Shown piece by piece: positions 456 through 9,024 of a stretch of 52,509 nt of DNA. The stretch spans positions 1 through 52,509 of the IMG/VR virus record IMGVR_UViG_3300026473_000017; one strand, 5' to 3'. The DNA is from a virus. The position numbers and the translations under genes are program-made. The notes beneath the pieces were generated by a model. The model saw only the letters and a program-made list of their open reading frames with translations, searched no databases and was not told the DNA's origin. How positions within the stretch are numbered: position 1 is the first letter of the stretch; every line of letters starts with the position of its first letter.

Positions 456-773
456 TCACTTTTTATCGGGTACTTTGGTGCCTTCCAACTTCTCGTGTAC
501 CTTAACCTCTTTGCAGACTTGTTCAGGCTTGCCGTCTTTGCCCATAACAGGCTTGCCGTCTTTTACCTTATCAATACAAGCCTTTTCCTTTTTAGCTTCG
601 TCTTTTTTACTAGGAGCTTTTTCTTCTTTTTTGCTAGGCTCATCCTTTTTTGCATCTGCTTTAGCAGGAGCTTTTTCTTCTTTCTTTTGTGGCTCGTCTT
701 TTTTAGCCTCTGCTGCTAGTACTGGTTGTACTAGTAGACTAGTAGCAAAAAGTGCAATTAAAAATTTTTGCAT
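456..773 (-). CDS. Small secreted Lys/Glu/Ala-rich protein
   Basis: 105 aa. Residues 1-20 form a clear Sec signal peptide (MQKF, hydrophobic core, cleavage after VLA). The mature part starts with alternating KKDEP/KKEEKAPAK repeats, a highly charged low-complexity stretch of about 45 residues. It ends in a short lysine-rich segment with two cysteines (ACIDKV and EQVCKEV) that could form one disulphide in the periplasm. No catalytic motif is visible and I do not recognise a family. It lies between a two-TM protein and phoH and shares their orientation, so it is probably co-transcribed as part of the exported-protein cassette. Its function is unknown; a periplasmic or envelope-associated role is inferred from the signal peptide alone. 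Confidence 0.8.
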   Translation of the reverse strand: MQKFLIALFATSLLVQPVLAAEAKKDEPQKKEEKAPAKADAKKDEPSKKEEKAPSKKDEAKKEKACIDKVKDGKPVMGKDGKPEQVCKEVKVHEKLEGTKVPDKK

Positions 774-784
774 AAATTTTCCTT

Positions 785-1234
785 TTATAGTTCAGGGAAT
801 TGTGGTTGTGGTGGCATTAGTTTTCCACCAAAACCTACGGTAACACCTTGATTACCACTTTGTGGCATTTGACTAACTGTAATACCACCGCTACCAATTG
901 TTACTGTTGGTTGTGGTGGCGGAGTAGGTGGTTTATCCCAACCTTTATTAGCAGCAGCTAGTGCCTGTTTTTGCGCTTCTTTATCACCGCTTGCTAACAT
1001 AATACCCGACAGTGTGCCTGTTAAAAATGTAGCAATAGGAATAATTAGCTCAAAAAATTTATTATCTACTGGACTTATACCGTTCATAGGTTGTGTAACA
1101 AATATAAGACTGTAGAGTACAACAAAAACAATACCAAATAGTGTAAGAGCTAGTACCATGCCAATAAAAAACTTAAGCCTAGCCATTAGCTCATCTTCTG
1201 TATAACGTGGGCCTTCCCATAGGTCTTTAATCAT
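785..1234 (-). CDS. Two-TM inner-membrane protein with Pro/Gly-rich tail
   Basis: About 149 aa from the ATG at 1234. A TTG two codons upstream (1240) extends the frame, but the ATG has an AAGGA sequence about 7 bases upstream and overlaps the previous stop as ATGA, so I prefer it. Hydrophobic segments at roughly residues 21-46 and 60-82 are predicted membrane helices. The region after about residue 95 is rich in Pro, Gly and Gln (PPTPPPQPT) and looks disordered. The size and two-helix hairpin are compatible with a holin, but the long proline-rich tail and distance from the endolysin argue against a confident call. It belongs to the run of membrane and exported proteins at 0.5-5.6 kb. Confidence 0.8.
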   Translation of the reverse strand: MIKDLWEGPRYTEDELMARLKFFIGMVLALTLFGIVFVVLYSLIFVTQPMNGISPVDNKFFELIIPIATFLTGTLSGIMLASGDKEAQKQALAAANKGWDKPPTPPPQPTVTIGSGGITVSQMPQSGNQGVTVGFGGKLMPPQPQFPEL

Positions 1235-1449
1235 TTGCAATCCTTTGGTGCACTAACACTGGCAGGTTGTTTGTTACTAGTGTTATTAGCTTTTTCATAT
1301 GGTGTTAAATCTTCTGGGCAGGTACCGTTAGCGCTACAATAAGGACGTTTACATACCTTATGTTCCCAATTATCAGGATTTTGACAAGGATAACGGTACA
1401 TATCAGTACAACTAGCTAATAGTAGTGTTAATAGGGCTATCCTAACCAT
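1231..1449 (-). CDS. Cysteine-rich outer-membrane lipoprotein
   Basis: The frame is open from an ATG at 1464, but the ATG at 1449 gives a normal lipoprotein signal (MVRIALLTLLLASC) without the acidic MDVDT prefix, so 1449 is the likelier start. The lipobox LLAS-C puts the lipidated Cys at residue 14. Asp is not at +2 (Thr is), which favours outer-membrane sorting in Gram-negatives. The mature 59 residues hold five further Cys in a compact YRYPCQNP...CKRPYCSANGTCP arrangement and then a Ser/Asn tail. I recall similar short CTD-YRYPCQ lipoproteins in T4-like marine phages, without a known function. It overlaps the upstream membrane-protein gene by 13 bases and the downstream one by ATGA. Confidence 0.78.
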   Translation of the reverse strand: MVRIALLTLLLASCTDMYRYPCQNPDNWEHKVCKRPYCSANGTCPEDLTPYEKANNTSNKQPASVSAPKDCK

Positions 1450-1964
1450 GGTATCCACATCCATAGTGCTTGAGTAACTAATAAACTGCCAAGTGCACCT
1501 ACTACAGTGCTAACCCAAAACATTGGCATACTAGCTGCAAGTATACTAGCAGTTAATAATACAATACTAATTTGTAGTACGCTACCACTCCAGGTAAACC
1601 AAGGACTACGCTGCTTAGCTTGATCACGTTCTGCTTCTAGCGCTTTGGCTTTTTCCATGATTTCCTTTTTATCGTCACTCATGCGCTTAGCTTCTGCTAA
1701 AAACTTATCACGATTTTCTGGTTTTTGTGCTTCTGCTGCGCTAATCTCGTAGAGAACGCCACGAACATTCTTAGCCTGATACCAAGCCCACATATTATTA
1801 GCTTGTATAGTATTATTTTGTATTTTACTACTATTTGATCCGCCAATCATAGTATTGATTGCTAGTAGCGCGGCTAAAAATACAATAACAAATCCGGCTT
1901 TGTCCTTGATTTTAGCTTCTTTTTCACTACGAGTTAATGGTTTAGGTTCTGGTTTATCACTCAT
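1437..1964 (-). CDS. DUF4337-like membrane protein
   Basis: 175 aa with a good AAGGA ribosome site before the ATG. A charged N-terminus precedes TM1 (about residues 23-41). A periplasmic or cytoplasmic helix follows, carrying the NNMWAWYQAKNVR motif at about 56-68, and two TM helices lie near the C-terminus (about 128-148 and 150-170). The WAWYQAK sequence placed after a first TM, with a helical middle and C-terminal TM pair, is what I associate with the DUF4337 family, whose function is unknown. The central part (residues 75-118) is strongly charged and helical and probably a coiled coil. It lies between a coiled-coil TM protein and a lipoprotein in the exported cassette. Confidence 0.75.
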   Translation of the reverse strand: MSDKPEPKPLTRSEKEAKIKDKAGFVIVFLAALLAINTMIGGSNSSKIQNNTIQANNMWAWYQAKNVRGVLYEISAAEAQKPENRDKFLAEAKRMSDDKKEIMEKAKALEAERDQAKQRSPWFTWSGSVLQISIVLLTASILAASMPMFWVSTVVGALGSLLVTQALWMWIPWLG

Positions 1965-1972
1965 ACTAGTCC

Positions 1973-2626
1973 TTACTTGTTAGCTAGTGGATTATCTAGT
2001 GCTTTTTTAAGATCTTCACTAATTTTCTTGTCAAGTGCCTTTAATTTAGCATCAACTTCACGATTATTAGCTGCAATAGCTTTAGCATTATCAGCACTCA
2101 TCTTATTCATTTCTTTAGTAGCAGCATTAAGTGATTGATCGGCTGCTTTTTGTATAGATCTAACCTCAACCTTAATTTCCTGCACAGTTTTATCTAGTTC
2201 ACGCTGCTGCGTTTTGTTGCTGGACTCTACGCTTTCAACTACCTTTTCAAGTCTACGTATATCACCTTTAAGATCATTTTTAATATCGCGCGTATACTCA
2301 GCAGTTTTATCTGATCCTTCCTGCACAGCCCTAGCAGTTTTAGTAGAATTTTCCTCTATAACTGCCAGTCGTTTATCAAATTCGCTAAAATCTGGTGCTA
2401 CATACTCGGCAATCTTCTTTTTCATGCCTATATAGTCTTTGTAAACTTCAAAAGCACCATATAATGCACCTAGTACACTGCTTAATAGTGTAGCCACAAT
2501 CATTAATTTAGCAGGCGTAAAATCATAACCACCTACACTAATAACAGTATCTTTACTAGCATACTTTTTAGCCGCAGCTTCTAGTTCTTCTACTTTTTTG
2601 TCTAAGTTTACTTTTTCTTCACTCAC
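1973..2626 (-). CDS. Single-TM protein with long coiled coil
   Basis: About 217 aa. The frame is open to a GTG at 2638, but the GTG at 2626 (MSEEKVNLDKK) has a GGAGG sequence five bases upstream and follows the previous stop by two bases, so I take 2626. One membrane helix lies at about residues 41-61 (AKLMIVATLLSSVLGALYG). From about residue 75 to the end the protein is almost entirely charged helix with heptad spacing (EFDKRLAVIEEN..., DLKGDIRRLEKVVESVESS) and is a predicted coiled coil, ending in alternating Lys/Ala/Asp. It could form a trimer or dimer anchored in the inner membrane and project into cytoplasm or periplasm. No function is recognised. It is the fourth gene of the exported cassette. 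Confidence 0.78.
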   Translation of the reverse strand: MSEEKVNLDKKVEELEAAAKKYASKDTVISVGGYDFTPAKLMIVATLLSSVLGALYGAFEVYKDYIGMKKKIAEYVAPDFSEFDKRLAVIEENSTKTARAVQEGSDKTAEYTRDIKNDLKGDIRRLEKVVESVESSNKTQQRELDKTVQEIKVEVRSIQKAADQSLNAATKEMNKMSADNAKAIAANNREVDAKLKALDKKISEDLKKALDNPLANK

Positions 2627-2628
2627 GG

Positions 2629-4413
2629 CTACCTCCACTGTTGGTTTATCATCTGCTGGTGCAGCTCATCGCTGCGTAAGTTTTGCAGTGCACGTCTATT
2701 ATCTATGGTACGTTGATTACGATAAATTTCCTTGGGTTGATAAAAACTAACGTCTGCTAGTGTTATTAAATAAGAATTAAATCCTATAGGTATTTGTGCA
2801 ATATTAGATATCGATAAGTTACCTGCTATCTCACTATCTTGAACGTTTTGTCTAACAGTGCTAACTTTACTATCTTGCTTAGCTTCTTCAGTGATCGGTC
2901 TACTATCTAATACACTGTTTAATGGGTCTGCCTTATTAGTTAAAAAATTAGACTGCTGCGTTGGTATATCTTGAGTTTGTCCTAATAGTGGATTTAAGGA
3001 TATTAGTTGTAAAGATGATGTTGCGCTACTACCTAAAGACTGAACTAAACTACTAGAACTATTAATTATTGTAGATGTATTTACTACTTCTTGTATATTA
3101 GCTTGAGTAGTAATATTTGATGTAGCTATAGACTGTTGTTTTGTTTTGTTATCTTGTGATACTGTTACAACAGCACTTGTTGTTTGCTGACTAGGATTTT
3201 GTAGAACACTAAATTGTTGTGGTGAACCTTGTAGTTGAAAAGTACTAGAACTGTTACTGGTAGGAGCTTGAAATAAGCTCAAAGATTGTTGACTTTTACT
3301 ATCTTTACTAGTTGCTAAAATAACTGCTTGTTGTTGCGTACTAATGCCTGCTTCTGCGCTTAGTCTAGCAAACCTTGAAGCAACTTGTTCTGCTTGTTTT
3401 ACAACCTGCTGAGTTAATTTTTCAGTTTCTTGCACTGCTGCTGTAGACGCATCTAATGATATTCGCTGCTCACGTTGCTGATTATCATCTATTTTTATAA
3501 GAGTAGTTATTAATCTATCAATATTAACATCTATTGGTCTTAGCTCTTCGTTAAATTCTAATTCTACTACGCCAGGTTCTTTTTCAAATAAATCCTGTTT
3601 GTCAAGTGGTTTAGGTTTAGATTGTTCTTGATAAGTAACAGCTACAGTATATGTGGTATCTTCTGTTTTAACTACATCATTATTTGTAGTAGTAGTTAAG
3701 TTCTTTTGTAATGCTTCTTGAAATTTTGGACAGTCTGGGCTGTACAGTGGGTTATTAACACAAGGATCTGGTTTGTATTTAAGTTGAAAACTAACATTAG
3801 TAATTTCTGGGCCATAAGGTCCTGCCCAATAATTATTATCCATACCTACAAAACCAAATTGAACATTGCTAACTTCATTTGGGCGTCTAAGTTTAGTCCA
3901 GTCTTGGCTCCAGTTATATGTTGTCCAGTTATGTATAAAATTTAAGTTATAGTTATAGCTTTCTAGTATAGTACTTCCGCCTTTGTCGTACAAATTAACA
4001 TAAGCGCTTAATTGATCTAATCTACCATCATCCCAACCATTTCCATTTTTACTGCTCCAACTAAATAGAAAACCTGTTGTTACTAGATTAGTTCCACTAT
4101 ATGGCAGTGATTTTGCTACGTTAGCATATTGATAAAGATTACCTAACCCATAACTAAAGTTAATATTACCATCTGGGCGAATCATAGGATTAGGGCCGCA
4201 ATATCCAGGATCTCCAGGTGCCCAACATGTAAGTGCTGGTACAAATGTTCCGCCTTGCCAGGTACTTGAAGAGGCTGTAGCAGTTTGAGTATTATTAACT
4301 AAGTTTCCAGTAATGTCTAAGCTACTAGTTTGTGCAAAACCTGGTAGTATTGATAGGGTCATTAATACTAGCAATATAGCCCAAACTACAGCTTTATCTT
4401 TTAGCCTAGCCAT
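2629..4413 (-). CDS. Secreted Gln/Ser/Thr-rich protein with N-terminal globular domain
   Basis: 594 aa. Residues 1-28 are a Sec signal peptide (VVWAILLVLMTLSILPGFA). Residues about 30-215 are a Trp/Tyr/Asn-rich globular domain with four Cys (LTCWAPGDPGYCG and DPCVNNPLYSPDCPKF). The pattern (a sheet-rich region with NGNGWDDGRLDQLSAYVNLYD) resembles a jelly-roll, but I cannot name a family. Residues about 285-355 are helical and charged. From about 355 to 520 the chain is low complexity, rich in Gln, Ser, Thr and Asn (QGSPQQFSVLQNPSQQTT). The C-terminus returns to a folded-looking tail with Arg-rich end. It overlaps the next secreted Asn-rich gene by 8 bases, so the two are made together. A periplasmic or extracellular location is inferred. 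I recall comparable proteins beside Asn-rich partners in marine myoviruses, but this is memory only. Confidence 0.8.
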   Translation of the reverse strand: MARLKDKAVVWAILLVLMTLSILPGFAQTSSLDITGNLVNNTQTATASSSTWQGGTFVPALTCWAPGDPGYCGPNPMIRPDGNINFSYGLGNLYQYANVAKSLPYSGTNLVTTGFLFSWSSKNGNGWDDGRLDQLSAYVNLYDKGGSTILESYNYNLNFIHNWTTYNWSQDWTKLRRPNEVSNVQFGFVGMDNNYWAGPYGPEITNVSFQLKYKPDPCVNNPLYSPDCPKFQEALQKNLTTTTNNDVVKTEDTTYTVAVTYQEQSKPKPLDKQDLFEKEPGVVELEFNEELRPIDVNIDRLITTLIKIDDNQQREQRISLDASTAAVQETEKLTQQVVKQAEQVASRFARLSAEAGISTQQQAVILATSKDSKSQQSLSLFQAPTSNSSSTFQLQGSPQQFSVLQNPSQQTTSAVVTVSQDNKTKQQSIATSNITTQANIQEVVNTSTIINSSSSLVQSLGSSATSSLQLISLNPLLGQTQDIPTQQSNFLTNKADPLNSVLDSRPITEEAKQDSKVSTVRQNVQDSEIAGNLSISNIAQIPIGFNSYLITLADVSFYQPKEIYRNQRTIDNRRALQNLRSDELHQQMINQQWR

Positions 4414-5632
4414 TCTCTTTAACTAGCTTGGGCAACTTATCAGGATTCTTTGCCCAAGCTTCTTTAGCTTGTTCACCAATTAACCCCTCATAGGGACAAG
4501 GCGTACCTGCCATCATCATAGCATCAAACACCCGTCTATCCTGACACATGGTAGCTACCGCAGCTACTTTCATACCCATGTCAAATAATGTTTTTGATAG
4601 TTTTAGTCGCTCACAATTCATATCTCGCTGTGTACCGCCTAGGGCCATACCAAATATCTGAGTTTGAACTGCTCCGCTTTGACCAGTAGTACAAAGATCT
4701 GGACTACCACCACTCATCATTGCTGGTGCTATAGCTGTTGGTGGCGGTTGAATTACACGTTGAGTAACCGTAGTTTCATTAATGTTACGATTAGTCATTT
4801 CACCAGTTTGAATATTTTGATTAATACTGTTACTAATATTGTTATTAGTGTTAACATTATTAGATGCTGAAACACTCTGACTATAATTTCTATTAGTCAT
4901 ATCACCAGTTTGCACGTTGTTTACAGTGCTGTTACTAGTAGTAACATTGTTATTGTTATAGGTCATTGTACCAGTGTTTATGTTTTCAACTTTACTAGTA
5001 CTAGTACTAACATTGTTATTATTTAGCGTTTGCGTACCAGTATTAATATTTTCATTTCTGCTGGTGCTAGTTGTAGCATTATTATTGTTGTATGTCATAG
5101 TACCACTATTAACGTTATTGTTGTTGTAAGTCATAGTACCACTATTAATGTTTTCGTTTTTATTTGTACTACTAGTAATATTGTTGTTGTTGTAAGTCAT
5201 AGTACCAGTATTAACATTATTGTTGTTGTAGGTCATAGTACCACTATTATTGTTATTATTTGTATAAGTTACACTACCACTCATACGATTGTCGTTAATA
5301 TTAGTAGCTGTACCACTTTGTACATTATTGTTAGTGTTGATATTTGTACTAGTGCTTGTATTAGTATTTGCATTAACTGAGTTACTATTTACTGTACTAG
5401 TAGATGTTGCAGTACTATTACTAGTACTTATGTTATTAGTAGTAACAGTACTGGTACTATTGCTAGTACTGTTAGTATCTACTAAGCTTCTGCCACCGTC
5501 ATAGTTACCTTGATCAATTAATCCGGTTGTGCTAGTTGTAGTGCCAGCAGTAGTATTTTGTGTACTAGTATTAGTTTGGGCTAATACTGATGTTGTTAGT
5601 GCTATTAAAAGAAAGGCTAATACTCGTTTCAT
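4406..5632 (-). CDS. Secreted Asn/Thr/Ser-repeat protein with Cys-containing C-terminal domain
   Basis: 408 aa with an AGGAG site six bases before the ATG. Residues 1-18 are a signal peptide (cleavage after VLA). Residues about 19-290 consist almost wholly of Asn, Thr, Ser, Val and Gly in imperfect repeats of the form NVNSGTMTYNNNNV; GTMTYNNNN occurs at least six times. Variants TGTQTLNNNNV and TGDMTNRNY continue the period. Such Asn ladders suit a beta-solenoid or amyloid-like fold. After a Pro-rich linker (VIQPPPTAIAP) comes a compact C-terminal domain, about 305-408, with Cys in DLCTTG, MNCERLKL, TMCQDRR and TPCPYEG and a helical KLSKTLFDMGMKVAAV stretch. The C-terminal domain resembles a conserved domain I remember in T4-like cyanophages and pelagiphages. 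Function unknown; it is exported right after lysis genes. Confidence 0.82.
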   Translation of the reverse strand: MKRVLAFLLIALTTSVLAQTNTSTQNTTAGTTTSTTGLIDQGNYDGGRSLVDTNSTSNSTSTVTTNNISTSNSTATSTSTVNSNSVNANTNTSTSTNINTNNNVQSGTATNINDNRMSGSVTYTNNNNNSGTMTYNNNNVNTGTMTYNNNNITSSTNKNENINSGTMTYNNNNVNSGTMTYNNNNATTSTSRNENINTGTQTLNNNNVSTSTSKVENINTGTMTYNNNNVTTSNSTVNNVQTGDMTNRNYSQSVSASNNVNTNNNISNSINQNIQTGEMTNRNINETTVTQRVIQPPPTAIAPAMMSGGSPDLCTTGQSGAVQTQIFGMALGGTQRDMNCERLKLSKTLFDMGMKVAAVATMCQDRRVFDAMMMAGTPCPYEGLIGEQAKEAWAKNPDKLPKLVKENG

Positions 5633-5652: not shown

Positions 5653-6267
5653 TTAATGAGCTAGTACGTGTAAACAATGCTCATAGTGTTTTTTTCTATC
5701 TTCTAAGCCAATTGTACCACCATTGATACGTTTTGTTAATGTTAAAATATCCTGCTTATCTGCCCACTGATTGAGATTGTTTGATTCCCAAAACCAGCAA
5801 GCACTTTGTGCAGCACCTTCAAAGGTTTCCATGTACTCTGACGCCTCTTCAGGGCTAATCTGTAGGCTAGCTGCAAACCAGCTGTAGTTATCTCGGCCAG
5901 TTACCTGTATTAATCCACGCCCACAGAATCGCCAGCCATCTCCCGACTCCTCAGGACCATTGCCCATGCGACTTGCATATACACGATTAGCAATCTTTTG
6001 TGGTTGCTTTTCGTATTGCTGCGCCAATGCATCTGTGGGAAAATACTTGGGAAATACTTTACGTAGGCTTTGCCAGCGGTAGTTTAGGTTTTCCTTAATA
6101 AACACAAAACCACCCGACTCATGTGCACACTGTGCTAAAAAGGCAGCTATACGATCTGGTGTGTTTATCTCATATTGTGGTAGTAATTGTTCTAGTGCAT
6201 GATGCCAGTAGCTAACATATTGATTTTTTGGTATAACCTGCTTAAGTTGATCTAGTGTTAATTCCAT
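5653..6267 (-). CDS. GH19 chitinase-like endolysin
   Basis: 204 aa, AAGGA ribosome site six bases before the ATG. The sequence reads as a complete glycoside hydrolase family 19 lysin: AQCAHESGGF with the probable catalytic Glu at residue 50, a second acidic residue nine positions on in KENLNY, and the substrate-cleft block GDGWRFCGRGLIQVTGRDNY at about 108-127. The C-terminal TKRINGGTIGLEDRKKHYE segment is also family-typical. GH19 phage lysins cleave the glycan strand of peptidoglycan. There is no signal peptide, so a holin must release it. It lies directly downstream of a lipoprotein and a coiled-coil membrane protein with 1-base overlap, forming a lysis cassette. High confidence. Confidence 0.95.
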   Translation of the reverse strand: MELTLDQLKQVIPKNQYVSYWHHALEQLLPQYEINTPDRIAAFLAQCAHESGGFVFIKENLNYRWQSLRKVFPKYFPTDALAQQYEKQPQKIANRVYASRMGNGPEESGDGWRFCGRGLIQVTGRDNYSWFAASLQISPEEASEYMETFEGAAQSACWFWESNNLNQWADKQDILTLTKRINGGTIGLEDRKKHYEHCLHVLAH

Positions 6268-6527
6268 TACTTGTCCTTTTTCCAGTGAGTGTTATACCAC
6301 TTAACCCAGCTATCGTTATTTAGTTTACAAAGGTGATATAGCTGGTAGTTTTGTTGTACTAGGTCTACAAGTTCTGCCATGCTTACAGCTTGTGCGTCTA
6401 TGGTTTTTAATACTTCGCATTGCGTAAGCATTGTTGGATCAGGTACATTTGGCCAGGGCGGATTTACCTTAAAAGTTTGTAAACACCCAGCTAGTGGTAA
6501 TGCTAGTATGAATACTATCCATTTCAT
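6267..6527 (-). CDS. Lipoprotein, probable outer-membrane spanin subunit (Rz1-like)
   Basis: 86 aa. Lipobox LAG-C with the lipidated Cys at residue 15 (MKWIVFILALPLAGC). The mature part has a Pro-rich start (VNPPWPNVPDP), two more Cys (TQCEVL and YHLCKL) and a helical centre (SMAELVDLVQQNYQLYH), ending in Trp/Lys-rich residues. The position between an inner-membrane coiled-coil protein and the endolysin, with 4-base and 1-base overlaps, is the usual place of an o-spanin. The proline content supports this, but Rz1 proteins are too divergent for sequence alone to prove it. It may equally be a conserved phage lipoprotein of other function. Confidence 0.65.
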   Translation of the reverse strand: MKWIVFILALPLAGCLQTFKVNPPWPNVPDPTMLTQCEVLKTIDAQAVSMAELVDLVQQNYQLYHLCKLNNDSWVKWYNTHWKKDK

Positions 6528-7078
6528 TGTTTTATACCTCTGGCTGTATTATTTAATCGTTCTACATATAACTCAGGTACAGTAGGACAATTTTTAGCAT
6601 TTGCTAATACATCTTCCAATTTTTTATTAGCAGCTTGTTTATCCTTTTCGCCTAGAGCAGCATATTTGTCCTGTTCAGCCTTACTAAGTGTTGCCAATAC
6701 ATTTTGCACTGTAGCGTCCTTGGACTTTAACACCTCAATAAAACGCTTGTTTTGCTGACGTTCACGTTCTGCTGAAAGCTTAAGTTCTTTCAGTTTAGCT
6801 TCTCGTTCCAATTTAAGTTCGTTATTAGCTAGCTCTTGCTGTTTGGCTGCAGCTTCTGCTTTAGCAGTTTCTTCAGCCAATTTAGCTTGCCAGTAGTTGT
6901 TATTCCAATTTGCACCCATGAAAAATACTGTAAGTGCAAATAGTGGAATACAACTGTAGTGTACAACTTTAGCTTGTGGTATTAGGTGTGCAAAAAATCT
7001 GGTTATAAAAAATAGTAGTACACAAGCGGTAGCCAACAGTGGAAAAAACCAATCAGGTATAAAATTTAATAAGAACAC
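6524..7078 (-). CDS. Inner-membrane coiled-coil protein, probable i-spanin (Rz-like)
   Basis: 184 aa starting at a GTG at 7078, which has AAGGAG five bases upstream. Two hydrophobic segments (about residues 7-30 and 38-56) are followed by a long coiled coil of Glu/Lys/Ala/Leu from about 62 to 160. The end, KNCPTVPELYVERLNNTA, resembles the Cys-Pro-containing C-termini of Rz-type spanins. The coiled coil would span the periplasm to meet the partner lipoprotein encoded immediately downstream. Classical Rz has one TM helix; the extra hydrophobic segment could mean a holin-spanin hybrid or a different topology. No separate, obvious holin gene is adjacent. Confidence 0.62.
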   Translation of the reverse strand: MFLLNFIPDWFFPLLATACVLLFFITRFFAHLIPQAKVVHYSCIPLFALTVFFMGANWNNNYWQAKLAEETAKAEAAAKQQELANNELKLEREAKLKELKLSAERERQQNKRFIEVLKSKDATVQNVLATLSKAEQDKYAALGEKDKQAANKKLEDVLANAKNCPTVPELYVERLNNTARGIKQ

Positions 7079-8160: not shown

Positions 8161-9024
8161 TTAACTAGAAAAAGTAACTGTTTGGCCGCTAGCGGCACTA
8201 GTAACAGTATAGGTTTTATATCCGCTGGAGTTGTTTAATTGGTAAACAACTCCAGCACTAAAGTTAGCTGAAAAACTATCTGGTATACGCAAAACTACAA
8301 CGCCACTGCCACCAGCTTGACCATTTTGAGCAGTGCCGTGTTCTCCACCGCCTCCACCACCAGTGTTTGCACCGCCTGGTGTGCCACTTTGATTAGCACC
8401 TTGACCTAAGCCACCACCGCCAATACCAGCTGTGCCGCCAGTGCCAGTAGTAGCAAATCCTGCACCGCCACCACCGCCACCATAATAACTACCAGTAATT
8501 GCACTTTGCACGCCAGCACCACCGCTGCCACCAGCAGCTACACTAACACCGCCAGGTCCACCTGCACCGCCACCACCCCCACCGCGACGACTGCCGGTTA
8601 AACCGCCACCTTCGCCGCCTGGGTAGCCTTGGCTGGCATTGCCACCCATGCCGCCTTGGCCCCAGCCACCGCCGCCACTAGCACCGTCGCCGCCAGTAGT
8701 ATAGGTGGGATTACTGCTGCCCCAACCAGCACCACGACCACCACCATAGGCAACTATACCAGCAAACTGTGAAAGACCGCCTTGAGTAGCTGGTATAGTA
8801 GGAGTAGAGTTATAATATTGGCCAACACCACCTAAGCCCACAGTTAGTGTATACGCGCTGTTTAAGCTATAGCCTATAATGTTTAAGCTTTCAACTACAC
8901 CACCACCTCCGCCACCGCCACCTGCTCCACTGCCGCCACCTCCACCACCACCTACTACTAGGTAGCTAACGCTTAGTGGAACTACGCGCGGTAGTTTGCC
9001 AAATCTTAGTAGTGGACTACTCAT
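8161..9024 (-). CDS. Glycine-rich tail-fibre adhesin
   Basis: 287 aa. After about 20 residues comes SYLVVGGGGGGG, the entry motif of the phage glycine-rich domain. About 200 residues with clusters of five to eight glycines follow (GGGGWGQGGMGG, GSYYGGGGGGAG), then the exit motif GGSGVVVLRIP and a short C-terminal beta tip (SGYKTYTVTSAASGQTVTF). Polyglycine-II bundles of this kind form the distal receptor-binding tips of T4-like long tail fibres; here the same role is inferred. Its C-terminal tip is homologous to that of the neighbouring 1436-aa protein. The codons are CTAG-rich like the phage backbone, unlike the equivalent domain in the neighbour, so this is the long-resident copy. Confidence 0.82.
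   Translation of the reverse strand: MSSPLLRFGKLPRVVPLSVSYLVVGGGGGGGSGAGGGGGGGGVVESLNIIGYSLNSAYTLTVGLGGVGQYYNSTPTIPATQGGLSQFAGIVAYGGGRGAGWGSSNPTYTTGGDGASGGGGWGQGGMGGNASQGYPGGEGGGLTGSRRGGGGGGAGGPGGVSVAAGGSGGAGVQSAITGSYYGGGGGGAGFATTGTGGTAGIGGGGLGQGANQSGTPGGANTGGGGGGEHGTAQNGQAGGSGVVVLRIPDSFSANFSAGVVYQLNNSSGYKTYTVTSAASGQTVTFSS

Follow-up and report, generated by a model that had tools for sequence, protein, structure and literature searches.

A conserved three-gene export cassette with exchangeable, lectin-like heads in phages of different build

The virus record IMGVR_UViG_3300026473_000017, a 52.5-kb stretch (52,509 nucleotides) that was analysed whole and is called the window below, belongs to a long-tailed phage, with genes for a major tail protein (phrog_3575), a tail terminator (phrog_3907) and a head-tail adaptor (phrog_442). 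Its positions 456-5632 carry a cassette on the minus strand which the initial annotation described as seven consecutive genes for exported or membrane proteins lying directly after the lysis genes. All seven open reading frames (ORFs) were found there, and they are real in the window. Judging from sequence comparisons, however, the unit that is conserved elsewhere is formed by three genes and not seven. These three (1973-5632), hereafter core genes 1, 2 and 3, encode a secreted Asn-rich array protein, a secreted protein with an exchangeable head, and a membrane-bound coiled coil, respectively; the other four recur in only 16, 14, 14 and 7 of 124 loci.

Relatives of core gene 1 are numerous in viral contigs, where two pattern scans confirmed 525 and at least 598 stretches. 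The loci compared here were drawn from the best 80 of the 525 and the best 80 of the at least 598 matches, together with 30 from genome contigs and seven phage records; four further phage records were read outside the locus counts. The C-terminal domain of the core gene 1 product is present in 199 of the 201 sources, and at 90% identity of that domain 124 non-redundant loci were distinguished. Only 11 of 50,697 phage records contain it (six pelagiphages, two roseophages and three uncultured phages). The thirty genome contigs are titled as unrelated bacteria or archaea, mostly metagenome-assembled genomes, which fits phage contigs binned with their hosts. By BLAST clustering, relatives of the core gene 2 product occur in 86 and those of the core gene 3 product in 99 of the 124 loci. 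By profile, all three core genes are present in 76 of the 88 non-redundant loci with 4.5 kb of downstream sequence, whereas the other 12, pelagiphages and roseophages included, lack the core gene 2 tail motif at the threshold used. A downstream ORF ending in NP[LM], the signature of core gene 3, was found in all 88 loci (87 by profile), compared with 8 of 83 loci (2 by profile) in the upstream control.

Core gene 1 (4406-5632; minus strand, as are all cassette and lysis features given below) encodes a protein of 408 amino acids (aa). Composition and autocorrelation bear out its earlier description as a secreted protein rich in Asn, Thr and Ser with short-period repeats. A signal peptide at about residues 1-19 (MKRVLAFLLIALTTSVLAQ; 5576-5632), recognized by hydropathy, is followed by an array at about residues 20-290 (4763-5575), composed of units of 10-12 residues, and by a C-terminal domain (residues 291-408; 4409-4762). 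Of the 271 residues that separate the signal peptide from the C-terminal domain, 78 are Asn, 63 Thr and 37 Ser, and the array repeats at lags of 2, 10, 12, 22, 24, 34, 44, 46 and 56 residues (autocorrelation, z of about 5 to 10). In the 63 of the 124 loci in which 150 or more residues precede the domain, the array consists of 32% Asn, 24% Thr and 15% Ser, versus 6, 7 and 7% in other neighbouring proteins, and the significant repeat lags (z > 4), pooled over these loci, are all even (760 of 760). Even spacing is seen for Thr (80%), Ser (74%), Gly (83%) and Val/Ile (67%); no even bias is found for Asn (52%, 2615 of 5057), Gln (48%) or the class Val/Ile/Met/Leu/Tyr/Phe (45%, 1068 of 2366). The same-codon fraction at repeat lags equals expectation (0.462 versus 0.458 at lag 12), so that recent slippage is not the cause, and DNA slippage was rejected as the origin of the array.

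Such a two-residue alternation fits a β structure of the Asn array. AlphaFold2 (AF2) was run for core genes 1 and 2 on alignments of 49 and 41 rows, with the window first and the others being 48 and 40 of the 60 listed per gene. It drew alternating strands at residues 179-251 of the array, with a 22-residue double repeat, at low confidence (predicted local distance difference test, pLDDT, of about 40-60). A β-solenoid or amyloid-like stalk is thus the natural reading of the model, if not a proven one; the earlier suggestion of a curli-type or β-solenoid Asn ladder holds for the strict alternation, but not for membership in the curli systems (see below). The C-terminal domain, a folded domain that the initial annotation had not recognized, is predicted to be helical, with pLDDT of 85-95 at residues 341-400, and its four Cys columns are invariant in 19 of 19 aligned rows. 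It found no match in the PDB, either with a sequence profile or with Foldseek and VIA on the full-length model, and only uncharacterised phage proteins in BFVD. The protein also matches phrog_20531 (E = 6.4e-10 for the window), a family of unknown function for which the library gives neither function nor partner genes.

Core gene 2 (2629-4413) encodes a protein of 594 aa, secreted and rich in Gln, Ser and Thr as the initial annotation had stated (hydropathy, composition). The β-solenoid considered for it did not appear in the prediction. The Gln/Ser/Thr-rich part forms a linker at about residues 240-535 (2809-3696; AF2, composition), with a helix at 298-368 and mostly disordered elsewhere. The model contains, instead, a β-sandwich at about residues 30-240, mostly at pLDDT above 90, ahead of a poorly predicted tail (mean 66.9). 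This exchangeable, lectin-like head, unseen by the first reading, is the main new element of the cassette. Defined as residues 29-218 (3760-4329), it resembles the FBA domain of the Fbs proteins by structure (Foldseek E = 5.2e-7). Its closest structural counterpart is 2rj2, the sugar-binding domain of Fbs, a 10-strand β-sandwich (VIA Z 13.1, root-mean-square deviation 3.1, 156 residues aligned). A head profile built from 34 of the 41 alignment rows places FBA first among PDB sequences (E = 2.6e-5), and seven of the nine listed chains are F-box FBA proteins. The head shares the fold and the loop GxDxxfWaGxYGPxVxN with the FBA domain of Fbs1, Fbs2 and FBG3. According to the consulted parts of PMC4603797, Phe177, Tyr279 and Trp280 of Fbs1 are essential, Tyr279-Trp280 serving in the binding of N-acetylglucosamine (GlcNAc) pairs (GlcNAc-GlcNAc); at the position corresponding to this pair, Trp is found in 33 of the 34 heads and an aromatic-Trp pair in 24. 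The phage protein differs from the F-box FBA proteins in being secreted, in scoring below the Pfam FBA cut-off, in lacking an F-box (none at E ≤ 1 with Pfam) and in continuing into a linker and a phage-specific tail. A lectin function of the FBA-like head is therefore no more than plausible, as suggested by sequence and model.

The tail of core gene 2 (residues 536-594; 2632-2808) carries the motif FYxPKEIYxNQxTxDNxRA...LHxxMVxQQY, established by alignment. Its profile matches 97 of 111 eligible loci, with AF2 confidence of about 50-70 in this region. A tblastn search for phage proteins directly related to the 594-aa protein found none; relatives were reached via neighbouring genes and the C-terminal motif. 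Among the 97 tail-motif proteins longer than 250 aa, the heads are of several kinds: 51 are FBA-like, 19 share a profile with weak scores to the nidogen-like extracellular domain (NIDO) of Pfam, and 27 are neither; no solved-structure relative was found for the NIDO-like head. A conserved tail motif joined to unrelated heads suggests that the protein is anchored by its tail and owes its specificity to the head. The exchange is also evident between close relatives. Over 287 pairs selected at 80% or more identity of the C-terminal domain of core gene 1, the median identities are 0.34 for the head, 0.25 for the linker and 0.58 for the tail motif, compared with 0.69 for the endolysin (42 pairs) and 0.71 for the coil (268 pairs), unrelated sequences scoring about 0.2 on this scale. 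Loci L072 and L134, for instance, share 90% identity in the endolysin, 83% in the coil and 85% in the C-terminal domain, and only 23% in the head. Depositors have labelled gp45 of HTVC033P and gene 2 of MedDCM S28-C10 as "putative carbohydrate binding domain containing protein". In another locus (L097:8459-10597) a large protein has about ten modules of the type Cys-x5-Leu-Tyr/Ser...Cys-Pro-Gly-Tyr (CxxNPLYSxxCPGY) between head and linker.

Core gene 3 (1973-2638, 221 aa) encodes one transmembrane (TM) helix near the N terminus, followed by a coiled coil which ends in NPLANK. Translation probably begins at the GTG codon at position 2626, given that the relatives start with MSEEK. The coil varies in length, and the NPL tip is invariant in 25 of 25 aligned rows. 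A relation to ZorA of the Zorya system was rejected. The similarity is confined to the coiled-coil tail (at most 23 bits, residues 64-216), the NCBIfam ZorA model scores 15 against a cut-off of 190, and the MotA/ExbB/TolQ membrane domain of ZorA was not found in the protein.

The core order, which the initial annotation had proposed to look for in other phages, is conserved and can be read by eye in HTVC115P, HTVC202P, HTVC023P, Mosig, HTVC033P, Baldr and MedDCM S28-C10. Some variation is evident: the coil gene of HTVC115P lies five genes past gene 2, a single small gene separates core genes in HTVC023P and likewise in Baldr, and the gene that follows the domain is unrelated in CRP-207 and CRP-810. 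Downstream of the HTVC115P cassette, gp46 (L085:12336-12785) is annotated as a toxin-activating lysine-acyltransferase. A marine variant (L106:9288-11400 and similar) combines a short gene-1 protein and a gene-2 protein of about 290-300 aa with three extra small secreted proteins (165, 125 and 140 aa) before the coil, whose clusters 6, 5 and 8 co-occur in 19 of the 124 loci; a chaperone-usher pilus was considered for this variant and dropped, as neither Pfam nor PHROGs yielded a pilus family or an informative match.

Among the carriers are the present long-tailed phage, pelagiphages and roseophages whose annotation or name marks them as podo- or myoviruses, and T4-like contigs that encode a phrog_262 DNA polymerase. 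The position of the cassette also differs among loci. It diverges from the phrog_262 DNA polymerase gene in 20 of the 124, some of which have genes for UvsX and a DnaB-like helicase farther on, and precedes the terminase gene in HTVC202P. An endolysin or lysozyme cluster lies within the surveyed six to seven genes in 27 of the 124, and Rz, Rz1 and endolysin clusters are present together, as in the window, in 11 of the 124. Neither late timing nor a link to lysis is therefore general, and the module appears to travel between phages of different build. The unlike tails of the carriers, in turn, disfavour a virion role and favour a non-virion role at the host envelope.

In the window, the genes upstream of the cassette (5653-7078) are an endolysin (5653-6267; phrog_181, E = 7.9e-77), an Rz1-like lipoprotein (6267-6527; phrog_2425, E = 7.5e-6, and phrog_456, E = 8e-4) and an Rz-like protein (6524-7078; phrog_312, E = 5.6e-4). 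The four accessory genes encode a DUF4337 membrane protein (1437-1964; PF14235, E = 1.2e-31), which varies in strand and position among its 16 related loci, a small protein with a lipobox (1231-1464; 14 loci; ORF and hydropathy), a TM protein of phrog_25359 (785-1240; E = 1.3e-18; 14 loci) and a secreted protein rich in Lys, Glu and Ala (456-773; seven loci; ORF and hydropathy). A crude hydropathy test called a signal peptide or TM helix in all seven cassette ORFs; it flags 15 of the window's 40 genes, a few clearly in error (e.g., a Gly-rich protein at 8161-9024), and a run of at least seven flagged genes arose in 0.9% of shuffles. Coordinates, hydropathy and PHROGs thus agree on seven consecutive exported or membrane genes after the lysis genes. 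It had also been claimed that none of the seven resembles a virion part; indeed, six have no virion family match in the PHROGs and Pfam scan, and the 221-aa coil has weak matches only (E ≥ 0.02), to long tail proteins. The DUF4337 protein alone among the seven exceeds a Pfam cut-off. On its other side the cassette adjoins a partial PhoH-like gene (1-435), which clusters with a relative in L072 that matches phrog_170 (PhoH). A very large set of tail-fibre-like proteins, many of which match several tail fibre PHROGs, extends over 9368-35263; collagen-like repeats and repeats of other kinds occur in them. Scans of the window for tRNAs and promoters added nothing.

The reading that we prefer, tentatively and with a little less than an even chance of being right, is that the products of the three-gene export cassette assemble in the infected cell into a glycan-binding complex that is anchored in the envelope. 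The products of core genes 1 and 2 would be exported by their N-terminal signals. The core gene 3 product, with its single TM helix, variable coil and fixed NPL tip, would form the anchor in the inner membrane with its coil presumably on the periplasmic side, on which either the tail motif of the gene 2 protein or the four-Cys domain of the gene 1 protein may dock. The gene 1 protein could act as a stalk or cap, its Asn array forming the β-solenoid or amyloid-like stalk, and the gene 2 protein as a head-bearing adhesin whose heads may bind glycans of the host surface or envelope. The findings offer no route by which the two secreted products would pass the outer membrane. The likeliest benefit would be a surface masked or altered during infection, i.e., superinfection exclusion, possibly through receptor masking. 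The faster change of the heads, compared with the other parts, places this benefit ahead of help in lysis (second) and aggregation (third).

Several observations weigh against a glycan-binding complex. Unrelated β-sandwiches follow the Fbs domain in the structural search from Z 10.7. The Pfam FBA model scores the window head at 19.8 bits, against a cut-off of 32.4, and only 8 of the 34 heads match it at E ≤ 1. FBG3, moreover, keeps the sugar-site residues yet binds no sugar (PMC4603797, in the parts consulted). For the NIDO-like head, Pfam NIDO is matched weakly, in 4 of 18 rows (best E = 3.8e-5), and six pelagiphage and MedDCM gene-2 proteins have other heads still, with weak CBM_4_9 matches in two (E = 0.009 and 0.02). 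The rapid change of the heads could also reflect drift in a loosely constrained domain. The signal-peptide test is unspecific, since 324 of 783 other neighbouring genes pass it too, and the lysis genes near the cassette in 27 of the 124 loci would fit a lysis role too.

That last point leads to the strongest competitor, which we regard as unlikely but deserving of serious attention, namely an accessory to lysis or release. A membrane coil and a long, flexible secreted partner would reach from the inner membrane across the wall to the outer membrane, and would help to rupture a thin envelope or to set the moment of lysis; a head of the GlcNAc-GlcNAc-binding type would then bind peptidoglycan, as a spanin-type or wall-binding device. 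In the window the cassette indeed lies directly behind Rz-like, Rz1-like and endolysin genes, and an annotated lysozyme or peptidase M15 lies within about five genes in CRP-207, CRP-810, HTVC033P and HTVC023P. A TM helix with a coil of variable length and a fixed tip is spanin-like as well; core gene 3 would correspond to an i-spanin if its coil lies in the periplasm. The cassette departs from Rz/Rz1 spanins, however, in its NPL tip and in the absence of a lipobox from core genes 1 and 2 of the window, which already has separate Rz and Rz1 candidates. No lipoprotein partner of the o-spanin type was found among the core products; the accessory protein at 1231-1464 has a lipobox, but in only 14 of the 124 loci. 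In 20 of the 124 loci the cassette lies beside a divergent DNA polymerase gene instead, and unrelated, swappable heads would be odd for a conserved wall target.

An extracellular fibre for aggregation or capture is more doubtful still. The gene 1 protein would polymerise in an amyloid-like manner, with the gene 2 protein as its sticky tip, and infected cells or debris would keep new hosts close by; for phage curli, such "sibling capture" has been put forward in PMC7029224. The even lags across all 63 array loci, the codons without sign of recent slippage and the alternating strands of the 22-residue double repeat are consistent with such a fibre; the low pLDDT of these strands, the restriction of parity to some residue classes and the lack of a long array in many marine members speak against it. 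Phage CsgG and CsgF have been reported, and the curli or type VIII secretion systems of pelagiphages (HTVC008M, Melnitz and HTVC023P-type clades) likewise involve exported, repeat-rich and possibly amyloid proteins in phages of aquatic hosts; in the parts of these sources consulted (PMC7029224, PMC9004378, PMC9599517) their role is disputed between aggregation, defence against superinfection and lysis timing. The present cassette is not a member of these systems. Neither the CsgG pore (PF03783) nor curlin repeats (PF07012) were found in any of 26 records, some of them possibly fragments, and the controls were positive (HTVC008M for CsgG, E = 1.8e-54; E. coli for curlin). A fibre made of the gene 1 protein consequently has no known secretion route. 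HTVC008M has CsgG and no four-Cys domain, and the related pelagimyophage Mosig shows the reverse, although this concerns two phages only; a coil search of HTVC008M gave one weak match (E = 0.004). An exchange of curli for the cassette at one locus was rejected, as the two gene sets lie at different places in these phages. A Mosig gene taken at first for a holin matched only phrog_6637, of unknown function, and the point was dropped.

A virion or virion-associated part, such as a fibre or decoration added after lysis, is the least probable explanation: tail spikes also carry lectin-like heads and CBM-like folds, as rows of the structure search show, but export signals, an inner-membrane partner, carriers with unlike tails and the lack of virion family matches all oppose it, and no virion mass spectrometry of a carrier phage was found in the literature searched.

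In Pfam, PHROGs, NCBIfam and PADLOC, none of the three core proteins belongs to a family whose role is known, and the two secreted ones have no match in the defence-system library. The consulted parts of the literature searched, supplements left out, contained no description of the cassette (including PMC9599517, PMC9004378, PMC7029224, PMC9038755, PMC10504331 and PMC4603797). Slightly less probable than the envelope complex itself, in our view, is the broader proposal that the cassette represents an undescribed and widespread system, in which an inner-membrane coil with an NPL tip anchors a protein with exchangeable lectin heads, displayed from the envelope of the infected cell, and a four-Cys, Asn-ladder stalk protein. 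Such a system would give phages of related hosts an alternative to curli, and it would track host glycans by swaps of FBA, NIDO and CBM heads.

Aquatic viral contigs often carry the cassette, to which no role had been assigned. It offers a concrete handle on the dispute over the curli genes of pelagiphages. The FBA-like head makes glycan binding directly testable, as the even-lag array does for a β-solenoid. If infected cells are truly decorated with lectins, this would constitute a new way for phages to alter the surfaces of their hosts in abundant bacteria such as SAR11.

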